Source of the DNA: a virus | Length of the DNA: 22,814 nt | Strand: one strand, 5' to 3' | IMG/VR virus record: IMGVR_UViG_3300009706_001100 | Location: 1 to 22,814 of that record | Shown: one piece after another, positions 10,120 through 18,264 of the stretch | Layout: each line of letters begins with the position of its first letter | How positions within the stretch are numbered: position 1 is the first letter of the stretch | The notes under the pieces: generated by a model | Seen by the model: the letters and a program-made list of their open reading frames with translations, nothing else | Database searches by the model: none | What the model was told of the DNA's origin: nothing | Translations under genes and position numbers: made by a program

Positions 10120-10545
10120 CTAGCTCACTCCGGTCAGGCGGTAGGTCACGTCAGCTGATATGCGCGCCTCGATGGCGCCGTCTCTCTCGTCAATGTCAAG
10201 CGGCTGTGTGGCGGCAGCGTATATGTCAGCCGCCTGGGTGTGCAGCCTGACCAGCGCGCGGTCCACGCGCTCCATGTCATCCGACACACGATCCAGCGTG
10301 GCCGCACCTGCGGCAGAGTAAAGCACGGTGACGGTAAACTGCGCGCGCAGGGCGTCAACGGTCATGAGATCCGCACGGTTTGGCGGGTCGCTCAGGTCGA
10401 CAACGAACACGCGATCAGGCGCGCGCAGCCCGTCGCGCAGGGCGGTGTCGACGTGCCTGAACACGTCGCGCCCGCTGGCCTGGGCGTCTGGCGTGATCGC
10501 CTCGATGGCCGCGATCACGGCGTCTCTGACCGCGCTCGCCCTCAC
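10120..10545 (-). CDS. Tail terminator-like protein
   Basis: A 141-residue protein with the layout of small tail-completion/terminator proteins: an N-terminal helix (VRDAVIAAIEAITP), a DVFRHVD segment, beta strands with RVFVVDLSD and AQFTVTVLYSA, a long helix (DRVSDDMERVDRALVRL), and a last strand pair (IEARISADVTYRLTG). Such proteins cap the growing tail tube and join it to the head. Placement between a connector-type gene and the tail tube fits. The GTG start overlaps the previous TGA. It ends with TAG, two bases before the tube gene. Confidence 0.62.
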   Translation of the reverse strand: MRASAVRDAVIAAIEAITPDAQASGRDVFRHVDTALRDGLRAPDRVFVVDLSDPPNRADLMTVDALRAQFTVTVLYSAAGAATLDRVSDDMERVDRALVRLHTQAADIYAAATQPLDIDERDGAIEARISADVTYRLTGVS

Positions 10546-11435
10546 CTGCGCACCACGCGCATGGTGTACATGGGCGCCACCTCGCCAGCATCTACCGCGC
10601 CATCGTCATCACGATCGATCCAGTTGTTCGCGACGGCTTCGGCGATGAGGCGCCGCAGCGTCTGCTCTTGATCGTGCTGGTATGCCGTCGGGTCGTACCC
10701 TGCAGGCACGAGCGCGTCACTGGTCGCGCACTCCAGCCGCAGCGCCGCCAGGCCCGCCGACTCAAACACGGATCGATCGCCCACCATGTGCGGGTAGTTT
10801 CCGTCTGCGCGCAGGATGTTCCTGACCCGCTGGCTGGCTCGCCGCGCCAGCTCAAAGTAATGGCCAGAGTCGAGCCCGGTGGCGTAGCCGGGAAAGGCCA
10901 GCGCCAGATACCGCGCAGCGTCGTCGCCGCTCACCGCGTCGGGCCAGGGCGTCTTAACCACGTCAACGATCGTGCGATAACGGCGCACCGTGCCGTCGCC
11001 GTCAGTCACAGACCACTCAACGCGGTGATTGAGCCCGCGATCTGCGGTGTCGGCAGCCGTCAGCGGTGCTGACACGCGTTGGCCCACCAGGGTGTCACCG
11101 ACTGCCAGGGTGCCCGGTGGCGGGTGCTCCAGGGTGATCGTGGTGCCTGACACCTCACTCACGCCCACAGAGGCCGCCCAGCCGCTGGCGCTGGTCAGCC
11201 AGTAGCGCACGCCGGGCGTCATGCCCGTCGCGTTGTCCACCGTCATCGCCGTCTGGGACGTGACGGTGGCCACGGTCGCGGTGCCTGCATCACCGATCGC
11301 GTCCACCGTAACGGTGGGCGTGGCCAGGGCGGTGCCGCTGGTGCCATAAAACGTGGCCGTGGCGCTGACCGGCGCGGCGGTGTCCGGGTACTCTGACACC
11401 GTGGCAGCCGCGTCCTCTGTCACCTCGATCGCCAT
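10542..11435 (-). CDS. Connector-region protein with beta-rich N-terminus and EF-hand-like loop
   Basis: A 297-residue protein. Residues 1-145 are Thr/Val/Ala-rich and beta-like, with Ig-like repeats of strands (TATVATVTSQTAMTV; GTTITLEHPP). Residues 150-297 are helical and mixed, with the stretch YFELARRASQRVRNILRADG and a C-terminal EF-hand-like loop DRDDDGAVDAGE (274-285) that fits D-x-D-x-D-G-x-x-D-x-x-E. The location right after the capsid and before the tail terminator suggests a head-tail connector or adaptor. The start ATG has AGGGAGGG upstream, so it is translated independently of the capsid gene. Family unrecognised. It ends in GTGA. Confidence 0.6.
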   Translation of the reverse strand: MAIEVTEDAAATVSEYPDTAAPVSATATFYGTSGTALATPTVTVDAIGDAGTATVATVTSQTAMTVDNATGMTPGVRYWLTSASGWAASVGVSEVSGTTITLEHPPPGTLAVGDTLVGQRVSAPLTAADTADRGLNHRVEWSVTDGDGTVRRYRTIVDVVKTPWPDAVSGDDAARYLALAFPGYATGLDSGHYFELARRASQRVRNILRADGNYPHMVGDRSVFESAGLAALRLECATSDALVPAGYDPTAYQHDQEQTLRRLIAEAVANNWIDRDDDGAVDAGEVAPMYTMRVVRR

Positions 11436-11492: not shown

Positions 11493-12470
11493 CTAGGACG
11501 GGTTACCGGCGATCCCGATCGGCTCAGGCTTGGCATCCACCGCCAGAGCGAAGTCGACGACCAGCTTGCGGGCCAAGGTGTCGGCGTCCTCGGTGATGCG
11601 CAGAACCGGCGGCAGGCGTTGCCACGCCACCAGGCAATTCTCCAGCTTGGGCAGCAAGTACCACGCGTTCGTGTCGGTCAGCCAGGGCGCCACCACGATG
11701 TCAGCCAGCCCCATGTACTGGCCCACCATGTTGTTTAGTCCCTGCGAGGGCGAGGCGGCGCTCGACGTGTCGGAGGCGCTGCCCACGGTGGTGGTCACGC
11801 TGGTCAGCGTGTACGTGGATCCGACAGCGGCCATGGCGGCCTCTTCGAGATCGGGCGGAACCACCAGGGTGAAACCACCCGCCACGAGGTCATAGGGCGC
11901 GCCGGTCGAGTCGACCCAGGCCCTAGCAGACTTGACGGCGGCGGCTACACCGGCCGCGTCGAGCGCGCTGGTGATGTAGTTGCTGCGCGTGGTCGGCCCG
12001 CCGCTCGGCGTGCCCGGCACGGTGTGATCCGTCGCGAACAGCGTTTTCGGCGTAGGCAGGCCGGTGGTGACCGTGCCGCCCACCAGGCCGCCCTCCAGCG
12101 TGGTGTAAACCTGCTTGGCATAGGTGTTAGCCACGGCGATGCCCATCCGGCGCGCCATGTCGGCCACGAGGTTGGGGATGATCTCCGCGTCGAGTCGGCC
12201 CACGGTCACCATCGATCCGTACTGCGCGATCGCGATGTCCTTGGTGCCACTCGCGCCGGCCGCGCTGGCCGTGGCGCTCAGGTCGGCCGAGCCATCCCAG
12301 CTGGCCACCTCGCCCAGCGAGGCCATCGAGGTCATGCGCAGAGCGCCAGACTGATCCGTGCGGAAATCCGCCACGCGGCGCCAGTGATCCGGGATCGAAG
12401 CCAGGCCGTCAACATAGTTGATCGTGGCAATAGAGCGGGCGTTACTCGAAGAAAATGCGGTGAGTGCCAC
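11493..12470 (-). CDS. Major capsid protein (HK97 fold, Mu gpT-like)
   Basis: Main shell subunit, 325 residues. The N-terminal part (NARSIATINYVDGLASIPDH) is followed by a strand-rich E-loop-like region (EVASWDGSADLSATA), then IAQYGSMVTVGRLDAEIIPNLVADMARRMG, the spine-helix pattern of HK97-fold capsids. LPTPKTLFATDHT and TLVVPPDLEEAA (A-domain) recall the Mu gpT family, as does the terminal VVAPWL...WYLLP. It has GTG as its start, fixed by the GGAGG site. It ends in a tandem TAG-TAA stop, the only one seen here, which suggests strict termination. Gaps on both sides and the following hairpin set it apart from the coupled genes. Fold assignment rests on pattern, size and position; no cleavage site is obvious. 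Confidence 0.85.
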   Translation of the reverse strand: MALTAFSSSNARSIATINYVDGLASIPDHWRRVADFRTDQSGALRMTSMASLGEVASWDGSADLSATASAAGASGTKDIAIAQYGSMVTVGRLDAEIIPNLVADMARRMGIAVANTYAKQVYTTLEGGLVGGTVTTGLPTPKTLFATDHTVPGTPSGGPTTRSNYITSALDAAGVAAAVKSARAWVDSTGAPYDLVAGGFTLVVPPDLEEAAMAAVGSTYTLTSVTTTVGSASDTSSAASPSQGLNNMVGQYMGLADIVVAPWLTDTNAWYLLPKLENCLVAWQRLPPVLRITEDADTLARKLVVDFALAVDAKPEPIGIAGNPS

Positions 12471-12565: not shown

Positions 12566-13048
12566 TCACCGGCTTACGGTCACAATGCCCTCGCGCACGG
12601 CGCCGGTGGCGCCTGGGATGCGTGCCATCTCATCCTTCCAGCTGTCGCCCACGCTGCGCTCGATGCGCTTGCGCAGCTCGCGCTTGCGCTCGTGGAGCAT
12701 GCGGTAGGCCTGGTGAGGGATGCACAGGTACAGGCCGCCGCTGTCGCCGTCGGCCGATTCAAAGCCAACTTTCTTTAGCCCCTGCGGCGCGCTCTGGTAG
12801 CCCATGCGTCGCATGTTCGCGGCCAGCGCCTCGGCCCTCGGCGCGCCGCGCTGGCCGCAGCGTGTAAACACCCAGCCCTTGGCATAGTCGTCGGGCATTC
12901 CATACCAGCTGCCAATACTCATGCGCTCGGCCTGATCGTGGGCCTGGAAATACTCATTGAGCTGCAGCAGGCTCTGCGCCTCGGCCTGAGCCGCGCCAGC
13001 GTTGATCGTGGCAGCAGCGTCCAGCTTGCCGCCTTTCTTGCCGCTCAT
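12566..13048 (-). CDS. Hypothetical head-region protein, 160 aa
   Basis: It lies directly before the capsid gene. A basic start (MSGKKGGK) and a Gln/Ala-rich helix (18-42) are followed by MSIGSWYGMPDDYAKGWVFTRC. Residues 73-118 then carry EALAANMRRMGYQ...DSGGLYL..PHQAYRML, which lines up with the module of the two small genes upstream. The C-terminus is a charged helix (HERKRELRKRIERS). Two Cys (64 and 109) are present. Function is not recognised; a capsid accessory or decoration role is possible from location. The TAATG start overlap and TGA stop precede the 95-base gap before the capsid gene. Confidence 0.68.
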   Translation of the reverse strand: MSGKKGGKLDAAATINAGAAQAEAQSLLQLNEYFQAHDQAERMSIGSWYGMPDDYAKGWVFTRCGQRGAPRAEALAANMRRMGYQSAPQGLKKVGFESADGDSGGLYLCIPHQAYRMLHERKRELRKRIERSVGDSWKDEMARIPGATGAVREGIVTVSR

Positions 13049-13626
13049 TACTCGCCCCCGAACGTCGCGCGCATTTGCGCGCGGTGAAAGTCAGCACCAA
13101 AGGTGCCGTGCTGGCTCGACTTCATCTGCTCGTTCATTTGCGCGGTCTGGGTCGCGCCCTCGGTCTGGGTGGCGAACAGGCCGCCATTGCCGTCACGCCA
13201 CGCCTGGAGCGCCTGGGCGCCGTCGGCGGTGCCCGGGTCAGCGGCAGGCGCGAGTGTCAGCAGGTGCGAGTCAGACAGGCTGGCGCTGGCGCCCATCTTG
13301 CGCAGGTAGTCGACGCGTGCGCGCTGCGCCGCGCGTGCGCTGATCGCCTCGACGGCCTCACGCGCTGATCGCGTGCGCTCCAGCTCGGCAGACAGCTCGG
13401 CACGCAGGGCGCCCATGCCATCGTCATCGGCAGGCGAGGCCGCCACCGGCACAGGCGGCGGCTCGGCCGTCAGCTGCACCGGCGGCGGTGTGGTGGCTGG
13501 CGCGGGCGTGGTGGGCTCTGGTGTGGCGGGTGCTGCCTGCTGCGGGGCGGCAGGCGGCGGGGCGGCAGGCTCTGGCGGTGTGGTTGCGTCAATGGGCGCA
13601 CCAGCGACAATGGCGGCATCGCTCAC
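13048..13626 (-). CDS. Putative scaffolding protein
   Basis: A 192-residue product with a long Pro/Ala/Thr-rich N-terminal half (about 1-65, disordered), then a charged coiled-coil-like helix (ALRAELSAELERTRSAREAV, about 72-100), and a short Gln/Met-rich tail ending in AQMRATFGGE. This order of disordered arm, helix and C-terminal capsid-binding tail, one gene upstream of the region leading to the major capsid gene, is typical of phage scaffolds. No Ser-His-Asp protease domain is visible, so it does not look like a protease-scaffold fusion. The GTG start overlaps the upstream stop; its TAA stop forms TAATG with the next gene. The call rests on composition and position. Confidence 0.55.
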   Translation of the reverse strand: MSDAAIVAGAPIDATTPPEPAAPPPAAPQQAAPATPEPTTPAPATTPPPVQLTAEPPPVPVAASPADDDGMGALRAELSAELERTRSAREAVEAISARAAQRARVDYLRKMGASASLSDSHLLTLAPAADPGTADGAQALQAWRDGNGGLFATQTEGATQTAQMNEQMKSSQHGTFGADFHRAQMRATFGGE

Positions 13627-13847
13627 CTTGCCGCCCGATACAGCGCCAGGGCCTCGCTGGTGGCGGCCATGGTCACCAGGCCGCCGGCGCGGGTGTGCGG
13701 GCGAAAGCCGAACCGGGATTGCAGCCGCGCGGCCTCGGTCTCGTCCACCTTGACCGTGTAAACGGTCGGCCCGCCATGCGTGGCCACATCAGGGCGCAGA
13801 CGCGGCACGGCCTTGATCTTGCGCACCTTGGCCCTGCGCTCAGTCAT
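13623..13847 (-). CDS. Small basic protein, 74 aa (shares a module with two neighbours)
   Basis: The ATG start overlaps the upstream stop by eight bases. The N-terminus is basic (MTERRAKVRKIK). A VYTVKVDETEAARL segment leads into FGFRP, then AGGLVTMAATSEALALYRAA. Residues 38-73 follow the same EAA / G-aromatic / GG / A-x-x-x-Y pattern as the upstream 75-residue protein. There is no membrane segment and no catalytic motif. The function is unknown. It overlaps the scaffold candidate by GTGA. Confidence 0.68.
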   Translation of the reverse strand: MTERRAKVRKIKAVPRLRPDVATHGGPTVYTVKVDETEAARLQSRFGFRPHTRAGGLVTMAATSEALALYRAAR

Positions 13848-14067
13848 CGCCGCCCCCGGTGCTGGCCAGGTAGGCGTCAGCCGCTTGCTGGTCGGCCACC
13901 ATCACATACTTGCCGCCGCTGGTGCCCGTGGCCTGCCACCCGCACCTGACCATCACGGCGGCCTCGTCGGGGTCAGACAGACACGAGGCCACCGCCACGC
14001 CATCCATGGCGCGGGCGGCCTTAAGCTGCGGCAGCTTTGCCGATCGGGGCTTCTTCGCCTTGCTCAC
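13840..14067 (-). CDS. Small basic protein, 75 aa (shares a module with two neighbours)
   Basis: The GTG start overlaps the upstream TGA. The first 20 residues are Lys/Arg-rich, and the tail is acidic/glycine-rich (TGGGDD). Between them, residues 35-69 run EAAVMVRCGWQAT..GGKYVM..QQAADAYLA, a helix followed by a G-W turn, a G-G hairpin and a closing helix. The same layout occurs in the next gene and in the 160-residue gene downstream. The function is unknown. Position among head genes suggests a minor head or decoration-type protein, which is inference. Confidence 0.68.
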   Translation of the reverse strand: MSKAKKPRSAKLPQLKAARAMDGVAVASCLSDPDEAAVMVRCGWQATGTSGGKYVMVADQQAADAYLASTGGGDD

Positions 14068-14924
14068 CTGGCACCTCGCTGGGCTTTCTTGAAGTCGGCG
14101 CGCACGCGCTCGATCGCCTTGTTTCTTGTGCGCAGGCGTTTACGCGCTGTCACTGATGTCTGGGCCAGCTTTAGCATGTTGACCAGCGCAGGCACAAACA
14201 GCTGGCCCACCAGGGCGTTGATCTTGGTCATGTCAGCCGCAGACACGTCGATCAGCGGGCCATACTTGTCGCCCAAGAACCGCGCCAGATCGCGGTTGTT
14301 TTTTGCCTGCCCCGTGCGCCGCCCCTTGCTGGCGCCTGCGCCGAGCAGGCCCGCCTCCTTACGGCGCCCGCCGTAAAACGAGATCCGCACGCGGGTGGGC
14401 CCCATGGGGCGGATCTGCATACTGCGCGCCAGGGTGCCGGTGTTGACCAGATTGACGCCAGAGGCGGCCTTGCTCGCGTCGCCCGCTCTGCGAAACTCGC
14501 CATACGTGCGAAACGCTGACCAGCCAGCCCAGCGCCCCGTGCTGATCCTGAACGCCTCCTGGCCAGCCTGGCGCGCTGATAGGCTGTGGCTCGGCACCCA
14601 GTAGTGCCCCTCGGCCTCGCCTGAGCCCTCACGGCTTGACCCTGGCGCGGGGCGTGCCTTGGGCCGCATGTCGCTGTACCTGCCCAGCCCTCGCCCGCTC
14701 GTGCGGCGCCCGTCCACAAACAGCCGTTTGCTGACGAGCGAAAACACCAGCCGCGCCACGTGCAGCACCGGCTCGGCGAGGCGCATCTCGTCGGGCCTGA
14801 TTATCTCGGGATCCCAGCCCGTCATGTTGATCCGCTGGCCTCGTCGCCCACGCGAGCTGACCTTGCTGACCGTGCGCCCGCCCTTTTTTTGACGCTTGCC
14901 CAGTCTATAGTCAGGCGCCACCAT
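14064..14924 (-). CDS. Virion morphogenesis / head-tail joining-like protein
   Basis: This 286-residue protein is very basic. Residues 1-33 are Lys/Arg-rich and contain QKKGG encoded by a seven-A run. The core around 160-235 reads VNTGTLARSMQIR...RVRISFYGG... and then RDLARFLGDKYGPLIDVSAADM. This matches the general pattern of gp10/gpG-type proteins, which have a TG-x-L-x-x-S strand, an ISF-like strand and a final helix after a phenylalanine-rich turn. Proteins of that group close the head or tail connector. The C-terminal region is basic again. The match is by pattern only, so a minor head protein is equally possible. It starts at TGATG with the portal and ends in GTGA. Confidence 0.5.
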   Translation of the reverse strand: MVAPDYRLGKRQKKGGRTVSKVSSRGRRGQRINMTGWDPEIIRPDEMRLAEPVLHVARLVFSLVSKRLFVDGRRTSGRGLGRYSDMRPKARPAPGSSREGSGEAEGHYWVPSHSLSARQAGQEAFRISTGRWAGWSAFRTYGEFRRAGDASKAASGVNLVNTGTLARSMQIRPMGPTRVRISFYGGRRKEAGLLGAGASKGRRTGQAKNNRDLARFLGDKYGPLIDVSAADMTKINALVGQLFVPALVNMLKLAQTSVTARKRLRTRNKAIERVRADFKKAQRGAR

Positions 14925-16471
14925 CAGGCCACCACCTCAAGCGGCGCGGGCTGCGCTCCACCGAGCACACGGCGCGCCGTGGCCTCGGTCACGCCAAGCG
15001 CCTCGACCATGAACACCACGCCGCCGTCGACCGTCAGCTGGCCGTTGCCCACGCGCTCAGCCACGGCCAGCGCGGCGACAACCTGCGCACCATTCAGCGC
15101 GGCGCCCTCGGCGCCCGTGTCGGCAGCCATTGCGGCCTTTTGCGCCAGGTTCGCGGCCACGCGCGCCTCTGCGTCCGCGAGGCTCATGGCCTCGCGGCGG
15201 CTCAGATCCTCGGCGGGCGTGGTGATGCCCATTGCCACCAGCCGCTCCAACGCCTGGGCCTGGTGCAGCTCGTCGACAATCTGCACCGGTTCGCGGTAGC
15301 TGACGGCCACGTCTGTGGGCGGCACCACCTCGACGCCGGCCTGGTGGTTGATCCAGCCGCGCACGGCCTCGGCGAGGCGCGACTCAGCGCGCGTCATCTC
15401 ATTGATGTGACGGCGCCGCTCCACGTCGCGATCCAAGTTATCCAGCCGCTTGGCCAGCGCTGTGAGCGCGCTCGACTTTAGGACGGTCGCAGGGCTCATC
15501 CCCTGCAGCGCCACGCTCATCTTCAGATAGTGATCGATCACGCCCCTGTAGGCGTCGAGGCGCGGATCCGCCTGGACAAACTCAAAGCGGTGATCGGGGT
15601 CGCTGAGCCCCACCACCGTCTCAGGCCCCAGCTCGATCTCCGCTGCCGTGGCGTGCGGCACGCCGCTGAGCACGGCCTGCCCGGCTGTCTGGTGGAGCGC
15701 GACCACGCCCAGAGACGTGGCATCCTCCTGCACGGCGCGCTGGCACATCAGCAGTGTCTCGTTGGCGTGCGCCCAAAACTCACCGGGCGCCGGCAGGGCG
15801 TTGCGCAGGCGCACCGCCGGGATGAACCCCAGCGGGTTGCTGCCGTCATCAGCCCAGATCCCTTTGCCGGCCAGGTCGCCCGGCGCGTCAGAGGTCCACT
15901 CGGCGCGGGTCGGCGTGATCATGGCCGTGCCAAAGCTGGTGATCCCGCTGCCCACGTCGCTGCCCACCGGCAGGCGCACAAACCACCTGGACACGTCGGC
16001 CTCATCGTGGCTCGTCGGATCGCCAAGCTCAACCGCCTGATCATGGGGCGGCGGCACGAGAAAACGCACACCGCCGCGACCATCAGGCCAGACCCAGACG
16101 GTGCTGTTATTGAGCGCGCACAGCTGCTGGTGCGCGCTCAGCAGCACATCGTTGGCGGCGCCATTGCGATACGCGCCCAACATGCGCTCGGTGGCGGCCT
16201 CGTCCAGGCCGTCAAAGGTGCGCTGCGGCGGGTTTAGGTAGAGCTGCGCCTGCTCCATTGCCAGGCGCCGCACCAGCGGCACAGGCTTGAGCATGTGCTT
16301 GCCATAGGTCACGGGGAAGCGGCGGCGGCGCTCGTCCTCCACGTCACGCATGTCGCTGCGCAGGTACTGCCAGAGCAGCCGCGTGATGGTGCGCCAGGCG
16401 GTGCCGCCGGCGCGATCCTCAGCGGAGGAGGCGGCCGTGGTGGCCAAGTCGAGAGGTGCGGCGACTGCCAT
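14924..16471 (-). CDS. Portal protein
   Basis: Forms the dodecameric ring at the head vertex through which DNA passes. It has 515 residues, normal for portals. The N-terminal part shows the usual pattern of a Trp-rich helix (AWRTITRLLWQYL), then VPLVRRLAMEQAQLYLNPP, a clip/stem-containing middle, and a long helix with SALTALAKRLDNLDRDVERRR, which resembles the crown/stem helices of SPP1-type portals. The C-terminal 100 residues are Ala-rich and helical. Size, layout and the position right after TerL support the call; there is no single diagnostic motif. The ATG has no clear Shine-Dalgarno site, so translation probably depends on ribosomes leaving terL (53-base overlap). It ends in TGATG with the next gene. 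Confidence 0.82.
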   Translation of the reverse strand: MAVAAPLDLATTAASSAEDRAGGTAWRTITRLLWQYLRSDMRDVEDERRRRFPVTYGKHMLKPVPLVRRLAMEQAQLYLNPPQRTFDGLDEAATERMLGAYRNGAANDVLLSAHQQLCALNNSTVWVWPDGRGGVRFLVPPPHDQAVELGDPTSHDEADVSRWFVRLPVGSDVGSGITSFGTAMITPTRAEWTSDAPGDLAGKGIWADDGSNPLGFIPAVRLRNALPAPGEFWAHANETLLMCQRAVQEDATSLGVVALHQTAGQAVLSGVPHATAAEIELGPETVVGLSDPDHRFEFVQADPRLDAYRGVIDHYLKMSVALQGMSPATVLKSSALTALAKRLDNLDRDVERRRHINEMTRAESRLAEAVRGWINHQAGVEVVPPTDVAVSYREPVQIVDELHQAQALERLVAMGITTPAEDLSRREAMSLADAEARVAANLAQKAAMAADTGAEGAALNGAQVVAALAVAERVGNGQLTVDGGVVFMVEALGVTEATARRVLGGAQPAPLEVVA

Positions 16472-17903
16472 AGGTGCGGTCCATGGTGTAGGTGGATCTG
16501 CTCTGCTCGGCCATAACCACGGCTGCCATGCGCAGGCAGTCGCTGGCGTGATCGTGCACGCCGTCTTTCTGGGCTCTCATGGTGTCGATCGTGCCGTCGG
16601 CGCGCTGCTTGTATCGGTAGTTCAGCATGGCTTTGATGAGGGCGCGGCGGTCCTGGCGGGCCGCGATGCCCGCCGAAAGGTATAGCATGGGCGGTCCGTC
16701 GACAGGATCGAGGAGCGAGTTAACCACGCCGATCCCTGCCACGATGCTCTGCTCTTCGCGGCTGCGCATCCGGCTCACCTGTGCCCTCGGGAACTGCTGC
16801 ACCAGCCAACTCATCTCAGAGCGCACCGCGCGGTCACCCACGGCCCAGCTGGGCGGGCGGCGCAGCTCTTTGCACCGGCGCTCGATCATGTCGCGGAAGC
16901 GCATGGTGCTGGTGCCGCCGTCTGGGCACAGCTCGTCAAACACCACCAGCGCGCCGTCGGGCAGGATGGCAATAAACAGCGCGTGTGGGTTGGCGTGCCC
17001 CCAGTCACAGACGATCAGGTAGGGCGCCTCTGCGTTGTGCGTGTAGGGGCGAACGTGGTCGTCGCGGCTGAACTGATACACCGCAGCGTGCGGCTTCAGG
17101 ATCTCGCCCAGCACCTCGGCGCGGTATAGGCGCTTGGAGTAGCTGCTGCGCATTTGCCGCACGTAATCATCAGGCAGGTGCGGGTTGTCCAGGCTGCTGG
17201 CCCTGATGGTGTACCAGCGGCGCAGCTCGGCCTGCACCTCGGCCTGGGCCAGGCCGCGCGCAGCGTGCCTGCGCTCGATGAACATGGCCGGGATCCCGCG
17301 CAGGCCCTTGGGCGTGGTCGTCGCCCACAGGGCGCGCATCCTGGCGCGCGGATCCCGCAGCCGCCCCTGCAGCACGTGCCAGATATAGGGCGGGTCAAAG
17401 CTCACCTCGGATTCATCGATGCAGGCCCAGGCGAGCGTGCGCCCGCGCATATTCTCGATCTTTGAGAAGCTCCGCCAGCTCACGGTGCCACCGCACACCA
17501 GCTGAGCCTCCAGGCGGCTCTTGACCATGCGCCGCACCAAGGGGAAGCCGGCGCGGTGGAGCTGCTCGATCGCCTGCTCCCAGTCTGGCAGCAGCGTTGA
17601 AACGCACAGATCGTAGGTCGGGCCAAGCACCACGCCATGGCACCCAGGATTGCAGATCGCGTGAATCATTTGCTCCCTGACAGACCACGCGGTTTTGCCC
17701 GAACCCACGCCAGAGCAGAAAAGTTTAAAGCTAGTCTGACCGGGCGCCGCGCCGGCCAGGTGCGCGCGCAGCTGGTGCGGCAGCGGCACATAGTCGGTGG
17801 CCGCGCCGATCAGCCGCAGGGCGCCCAGGCGATCGCTCGAATCGCCCAGCCGCTGCCGCAGGCCGAGCCACCGCTCGCGGTGGTTATCAAATGAGATCGT
17901 CAC
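16419..17903 (-). CDS. terL: Terminase large subunit (packaging ATPase and nuclease)
   Basis: The motor that pumps DNA into the prohead and cuts the concatemer. From GTG 17903 (494 aa) I see Walker A GVGSGKT (65-71), Walker B AWACIDE with catalytic Glu164, and the coupling motif TTTPKG (195-200). The RNase-H-like nuclease follows, with IVCDWG (Asp300), FDE (Glu324), VGDRA (Asp357) and the C-terminal HDHASDCLRMA (His450-Asp455) with its conserved acidic residues. Both domains are intact. GTG 17903 is preferred because GAGG sits nine bases upstream; an in-frame TTG at 17921 is an alternative. The basic C-terminal tail (about 20 residues) overlaps the portal start by 53 bases. Confidence 0.95.
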   Translation of the reverse strand: MTISFDNHRERWLGLRQRLGDSSDRLGALRLIGAATDYVPLPHQLRAHLAGAAPGQTSFKLFCSGVGSGKTAWSVREQMIHAICNPGCHGVVLGPTYDLCVSTLLPDWEQAIEQLHRAGFPLVRRMVKSRLEAQLVCGGTVSWRSFSKIENMRGRTLAWACIDESEVSFDPPYIWHVLQGRLRDPRARMRALWATTTPKGLRGIPAMFIERRHAARGLAQAEVQAELRRWYTIRASSLDNPHLPDDYVRQMRSSYSKRLYRAEVLGEILKPHAAVYQFSRDDHVRPYTHNAEAPYLIVCDWGHANPHALFIAILPDGALVVFDELCPDGGTSTMRFRDMIERRCKELRRPPSWAVGDRAVRSEMSWLVQQFPRAQVSRMRSREEQSIVAGIGVVNSLLDPVDGPPMLYLSAGIAARQDRRALIKAMLNYRYKQRADGTIDTMRAQKDGVHDHASDCLRMAAVVMAEQSRSTYTMDRTYGSRRTSRLGHHGRLLR

Positions 17904-18264
17904 CGGTGTCAGCCTCGTCAAGGTGCACGGCGCGCAGCTCTGGCGGCACCTGCACCATGGCGGTGGCCGCGTCGCCCACGCCGCCGCTGACGAGCGCTAT
18001 GCGGTACAGCAGCCGCAGGTGCTGGCTGATGCGCGGGGCGGCATCACCGCCGGCGCTCTGGTCGAGCAGGTCGGCCATCAGCTGCGCAGCGGTCACAGCG
18101 CCCAGGTCGCGCATGGTGAAGCCGCCGCGCCCCACGATCTCGTCGACGCGCTCGGCGATCTGGCGCGGGTACAGCGCGCGCACGCTGGTCCACGCGATCG
18201 GCACGTCGGCGGCTGACTCGGCCAGGCGCAGCTGATCCTGGCCCGTGCGGCTGGGCCCGCTCAC
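17887..18264 (-). CDS. Hypothetical protein, 125 aa
   Basis: This is an unrecognised product. The GTG start overlaps the upstream TGA (GTGA). The central part is helical and carries RQIAERVDEIVGRGGFTMRDL, which has the length and spacing of a small DNA-binding or oligomerisation helix pair. A second helical stretch (QHLRLLYRIALVSGG) follows and the tail is acidic (DEADTGDDLI). The last bases overlap the large terminase start region, so the two are translationally linked. A terminase-associated role is conceivable from position alone. Confidence 0.65.
   Translation of the reverse strand: MSGPSRTGQDQLRLAESAADVPIAWTSVRALYPRQIAERVDEIVGRGGFTMRDLGAVTAAQLMADLLDQSAGGDAAPRISQHLRLLYRIALVSGGVGDAATAMVQVPPELRAVHLDEADTGDDLI

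Follow-up and report, generated by a model that had tools for sequence, protein, structure and literature searches.

Results and Discussion

The head gene block and its small genes

Do three small genes in the head region of this phage share one duplicated module? The stretch analyzed here, hereafter the window, is the 22,814-base virus record IMGVR_UViG_3300009706_001100, in which the head genes all lie on the minus strand in the order terminase large subunit, portal, p286, p75, p74, p192, p160, and major capsid protein. The original prediction, whose coordinates were right (p75 14067-13840, p74 13847-13623, and p160 13048-12566, all on the minus strand), proposed that these three proteins carry one duplicated, fast-diverging domain split around the scaffold gene. 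Our results agree with it in part: the observation was right for two of the three genes, for which duplication and fast divergence are supported, while a three-member family split around the scaffold gene is unsupported. The features of the block are as follows (L104 and L110 are distant relatives of the window, introduced below).

Terminase large subunit, 16419..17921, minus strand: Pfam Terminase_6N above cut-off; PHROG terminase, E 4.9e-28
Portal protein, 14924..16471, minus strand: PHROG portal, E 0.00077; L110 ortholog PHROG portal, E 1.2e-9
p286, 14064..14924, minus strand: conserved protein between portal and p75/p74; no family match
p75, 13840..14067, minus strand: 75 aa, GTG start; small head-region protein, very likely the diverged copy of a tandem pair
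p74, 13623..13847, minus strand: 74 aa; copy closer to the outgroup single gene; overlaps p75 by 8 bases
p192, 13048..13626, minus strand: scaffold-like by position and composition; Pro/Ala-rich N part, conserved C part
p160, 12566..13048, minus strand: 160 aa; proposed separate conserved family, between scaffold-like and capsid genes
Major capsid protein, Mu gpT / Phage_capsid_4 type, 11493..12470, minus strand: Pfam matches, mainly via the L104 ortholog

The genes of this block are tightly packed, with overlaps of 1 base between portal and p286, 4 between p286 and p75, 8 between p75 and p74, 4 between p74 and p192, and 1 between p192 and p160, followed by a 95-base gap after p160. Because of the start-to-stop overlaps with p286, with each other, and with p192, p75 and p74 are probably translated together with the scaffold-like gene. 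Terminase and portal share 53 bases (16419-16471), whereas in L104 both genes merely abut (7991/7992).

Assignments within the block vary in how directly they can be made. Window p192 has no Pfam match and a weak PHROG match to a terminase small subunit (E 0.022), and its ortholog in L104 matches Pfam Phage_scaffold below cut-off (14.4 vs 35 bits). The window capsid protein falls just below the cut-off of Mu-like_gpT in Pfam (E 0.0011), and its L104 ortholog passes the cut-offs of both Phage_capsid_4 and Mu-like_gpT; the capsid type is thus recognizable only through this relative. Downstream, p297 (10542-11435) ends in an acidic DxDxDG-type loop resembling an EF-hand calcium site. The loop is recognizable in the relatives L015, L104, L109, and L110, and p297 is possibly a calcium-binding head-tail adaptor.

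Relatives of the window

Direct searches found two near-identical contigs of the window (3300027839_001185 and 3300027847_001471), and a scan with a terminase alignment recovered L015, L016, and L017, whose terminases are 75% identical to that of the window; L016 was left out, its record ending within the portal gene. Later scans added L096, L098, L104 (portal 41% identical), L109, and L110 (terminase about 40%). We treated L104, L109, and L110, with terminases about 40% identical, as the outgroup; in the terminase tree they fall together on one side (100/100). All three outgroup contigs encode portal, p286, p192, capsid protein, p297, and p141 in unchanged order.

Kinship of p75 and p74

The similarity of p75 and p74 claimed in the original prediction is real. 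Aligned over their whole length, the two proteins have a Smith-Waterman score of 47, where shuffles average 22.9 (sd 4.3) and none of 2000 reaches it (2/2000 with cheaper gaps), and they are the best of the 171 pairs that can be formed from 19 window genes (z 7.8; runner-up 4.1). The proportion of matching residues, put at about a third, holds for the core, where 10 of 34 residues are identical in a hand count on the pairwise alignment over the segments originally compared, but not for the whole length, over which identity is 24%.

Profiles built from orthologs agree with the pairwise result. Two hhalign comparisons of p75 with p74 profiles gave probabilities of 92.5% and 94.7%, and the profile score was reached by 0/200 column-shuffled profiles, so the profile-profile check put forward for this pair came out clearly better than shuffled. 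With each profile built from rows excluding its target group, the outgroup-only profile detects all p74 and p75 rows (E 1e-9 to 0.022, with the next ORF at 0.95); all p75 rows and all three outgroup single genes are in turn detected by the p74 profile (E 2.8e-10 to 0.0067; next 0.32). The best 22 rows of the p75-only profile lack the L109 single gene and p74 of the L015 type. Window p75 also directly matches the p74 ortholog of L017 (34% identity, E 0.028), and the two copies in L017, together with the outgroup single genes, are intermediate. Judged by sequence, p75 and p74 are very likely paralogs.

Copy number and timing of the duplication

A pooled-profile search of ten whole records, all possibly incomplete, found two copies in 7/7 records of the window clade, which represent few lineages (the window with its two near-identical contigs, the L015/L096/L098 group, and L017), and one copy in 3/3 outgroup records. 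The outgroup single gene sits between the p286 and p192 orthologs in every case. In the gene tree, the p75 rows form one clade (100/99) and the p74 rows another (80/86). As this tree derives from 78 alignment columns, with 5 of its 8 inner branches open and the single genes placed without confidence, it fits more than one order of duplication and speciation.

Two readings are compatible with this distribution. A tandem duplication in the stem of the window's clade needs the fewest events and fits best, and we consider a duplication within this clade probable. One small head-region gene would have been duplicated in tandem in the ancestor of the window clade, after which the copies diverged, with p74 retaining more of the ancestral sequence than p75. 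The outgroup genes are nearer to p74 than p75 is (hhalign score 64.9 vs 42.3), an observation that would also follow if the duplication came before the outgroup branched off and p75 was then lost in the outgroup lineage; a single loss would suffice for this, as the outgroups make up one side of the terminase tree. Such an older duplication is nonetheless unlikely, as it costs one extra event, and the long branch of p75 (1.38 changes per column) is explained equally well by faster divergence of one copy. On the preferred reading, of a duplication within the window clade, the head cluster of this poorly known phage lineage offers a clean case of tandem duplication, set off by outgroups with one copy, though tandem twin genes of this kind are a tidy yet fairly ordinary outcome of phage evolution.

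Both copies diverge quickly. Between the window and L015/L017, p75 is 53/44% and p74 46/42% identical, compared to 71/71% for the portal and 62/65% for the capsid protein, and p286 (53/41%) is the sole gene comparable to the pair. This p286, which diverges as fast as the pair, has no match in Pfam, PHROGs, or NCBIfam. In contrast, p160 is better conserved than the pair (61 and 58% identity in L015 and L017). The description of a duplicated, fast-diverging module is therefore borne out for p75 and p74, by pairwise scores, profiles, copy count, and these identities, but does not extend to p160.

Predicted fold and conserved residues

An AlphaFold model of p75, built from an eleven-row alignment that includes the p74 rows, has a mean pLDDT of 68.2 (about 84 at residues 31-60). 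About the first 25 residues are disordered and form a Lys-rich arm, followed by a core (27-70) made up of a strand (27-31), a helix (33-41), two strands (45-50 and 53-58), and a closing helix (60-70). Each copy is predicted to consist of a short, basic, disordered arm and a beta-alpha-beta-beta-alpha core of ~45 residues. The family alignment, whose eleven rows define an orphan protein family and are usable for structure work, shows a basic N-terminal arm in every row (net +4 to +8), the helix AA in 11/11, the Gly before the aromatic residue in 10/11, and the Ala after the last strand in 11/11. The GG turn, which the original prediction took as a feature common to all three proteins, is not conserved in the orthologs of p75, p74, or p160. 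Nor is the spacing nearly the same in all three: the distance from the Gly-aromatic pair to GG is 8 residues in both p75 (43 to 51) and p74 (47 to 55) but 21 in p160 (83 to 104).

Fold searches of the PDB and BFVD with p75 returned nothing with E at or below 0.001, and a second-look structure aligner run against the PDB gave Z of at most 3.1, tied across unrelated folds; for these fold libraries, relatives missing from the match lists prove nothing.

p160 as a separate family

The p160 gene is present in the 10 records that carry the pair family, in one copy each. We reject p160 as a third family member on the sequence comparisons, in which hhalign against the small-gene profiles gives probabilities of 0.9, 0.3, and 1.2% and the whole-protein scores are reached by 179/2000 shuffles for p75 vs p160 and by 979/2000 for p74 vs p160. 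In the profile-profile check, p74-p160 was no better than shuffled, and p75-p160 nearly so. Since the notion of a module split around the scaffold gene needs p160 as a member and p160 fails, this arrangement is unsupported, and the idea is corrected here. We propose instead that p160 is from another family and does a job of its own next to the capsid protein.

It could still be argued that all three proteins descend from one ancient beta-alpha-beta-beta-alpha module, with p160 having gained a longer hairpin and flanking helices. The p160 model, with a strand (60-66), a helix (70-81), short strands (85-86 and 92-93), a strand (105-110), and a helix (112-141), has the same order of elements as that of p75, the level at which the models were compared. 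The score of the pooled small-gene profile against p160 was reached by just 1/200 column shuffles (7/200 for p75 and 20/200 for p74), the score of the p75 and p160 segments hand-picked in the original prediction by 3/2000 shuffles, and the small-gene profile ranks p160 above 8 other head-region families (1.2% vs at most 0.2%). However, the hhalign probabilities are all about 1% or lower, p74 and p160 remain at shuffle level by whole protein and by columns (1402/2000 for their hand-picked segments), and the profile of p160 gives a higher score (2.9%) with that of the unrelated capsid protein. The p160 model is also weak (mean pLDDT 63.5), elements in beta-alpha-beta-beta-alpha order occur commonly, and the three-member argument draws partly on GG and its spacing, which are unconserved. 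While the models make a very distant kinship with the pair at fold level conceivable, common descent of all three proteins from one module appears quite improbable.

In further comparisons, the second-look aligner filled the PDB list for p160 with long helices (Z at most 6.8), and with Foldseek no BFVD entry matched at an E of 0.001 or less. P74p87 of Thermus phage P74-26 (146 aa), encoded between scaffold and capsid genes, and Mushuvirus MmA_26 (149 aa), in the same place in the gene order, resemble p160 in position and length, and profile comparison matched p160 to neither (0.2% and 0.1%).

The converse of a three-member family, that p75 and p74 are themselves unrelated and owe their likeness to composition and a common fold alone, is hardly credible: both are short, N-terminally basic, and Ala-rich, with low whole-length identity, but composition-keeping shuffles and column-shuffled profiles fall short of their scores, the L017 copies and outgroup genes are intermediate, and the p75 and p74 genes are adjacent.

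Searches of databases and neighboring lineages

In searches of Pfam, PHROGs, and NCBIfam with p75, p74, p160, and their orthologs, nothing rose above the curated cut-offs. The weak rows, namely Volactin in Pfam for L017 p74 (E 0.0034), TrmL in NCBIfam for the L110 single gene (E 0.00053; 19.9 vs a cut-off of 190.6 bits), and a PHROG row for L017 p160 (E 0.019), were judged to be chance because each protein and its ortholog match different families. PDB sequences gave no meaningful match for p75 or p74. By tblastn of phage records, p160, p74, and the window capsid protein had no match, and p75 had two chance-level Gordonia phage rows (E 4) inside a methyltransferase gene. A row for the L104 single gene in MT838539 (E 0.07) was also taken as chance, as the frame is a long ORF of 462 aa, presumably encoding a phosphohexomutase, and not a small head gene; the p160 orthologs of L104 and L110 had one row each (E 2 and 0.8), which the profile did not confirm.

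The L110 capsid protein matches Mushuvirus and Helicobacter prophages in the phage-record search, and on two such records (L127 and L128) the p160 and pair profiles found no convincing relative, the best p160 row (E 0.0042), on the Mushuvirus terminase small subunit, being taken as chance. Among 76 distant terminase loci (L018-L093), many of them short fragments that may not reach across the head genes, neither family appeared at E up to 1, except for one row elsewhere at E 0.99. Among 50,697 phage records there was no tblastn match for the window, L104, or L110 portal, which suggests that this phage lineage is poorly sampled; neither the portal nor the terminase alignment found a relative in scans of genome contigs, and the papers listed by literature searches included none on the p75/p74 family. 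No family, fold, or virion evidence for the pair's functional role emerged.

A cluster of amino acid changes in p74

The window and contig 3300027839_001185 differ at 38 bases in 15,888 (99.8% identical), and 9 of these differences lie within one 250-base bin, which covers most of p74. Within p74, six codon differences change the amino acid and one is silent, all in core residues 35-54 (residues 35, 36, 37, 41 [silent], 45, 52, and 54), compared to 3 amino acid-changing and 20 silent differences in the 18 other genes together (Fisher p 0.0009, uncorrected, p74 having been picked once the data were known). The p74 of contig 3300027847_001471 is identical to that of the window. The cluster may reflect selection or one recombined tract; if it is real selection, it would point to a protein of the head block whose partner keeps changing. 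Taken further, the pair could be an accessory module that is packaged or exposed on the surface and evolves under diversifying selection, with a constant basic arm entering the head and a variable core acting on the host side, a very improbable reading modeled on T4 internal proteins such as IPI. PMC9958956 describes IPI as an injected inhibitor of a host endonuclease.

Proposed function and comparison with known systems

Overall, we lean toward the reading that p75 and p74 are diverged tandem copies, with a putative role as minor head-assembly proteins. The more specific assignment as minor prohead-core or head-completion proteins is tentative and follows from position, and the capsid accessory label given to the pair is likewise a reading of gene position only. 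The two proteins would be made alongside the scaffold-like protein at the time of head assembly, where scaffold, portal region, and DNA are candidate binding partners of the basic arm, and the copies might pair with each other or serve two nonidentical sites.

Three known systems offer points of comparison. The predicted fold of p75 has the two-layer alpha/beta, beta-alpha-beta-beta-alpha form of ring-building-motif domains such as EscJ and PrgK. EscJ (1yj7_A) aligns over 46 residues (rmsd 1.9, Z 3.1) and PrgK (4w4m_A) reaches Z 3.0, scores tied with RRM, microcompartment-shell, PII-like, and other unrelated folds; neither has a sequence match to the pair.

The lambda head gene cluster encodes gpW, a small alpha/beta head-completion protein with a disordered basic part, whose gene is flanked by terminase and portal and is not known to have a partner copy. 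It was not among the structure matches listed for p75. The lambda protein resembles the pair in size, alpha/beta character, and basic disordered part but differs in place and copy number.

In T4, the genes for gp67 and gp68 adjoin the scaffold and portal genes. To our knowledge, gp67 and gp68 are not paralogs of each other, unlike p75 and p74, and tblastn of phage records with p75 and p74 turned up no sequence match to them. They are described in PMC9958956 as prohead core proteins present in about 340 and 240 copies and degraded by protease. Like p75 and p74, they are two small proteins encoded beside scaffold and portal, a likeness of place only.
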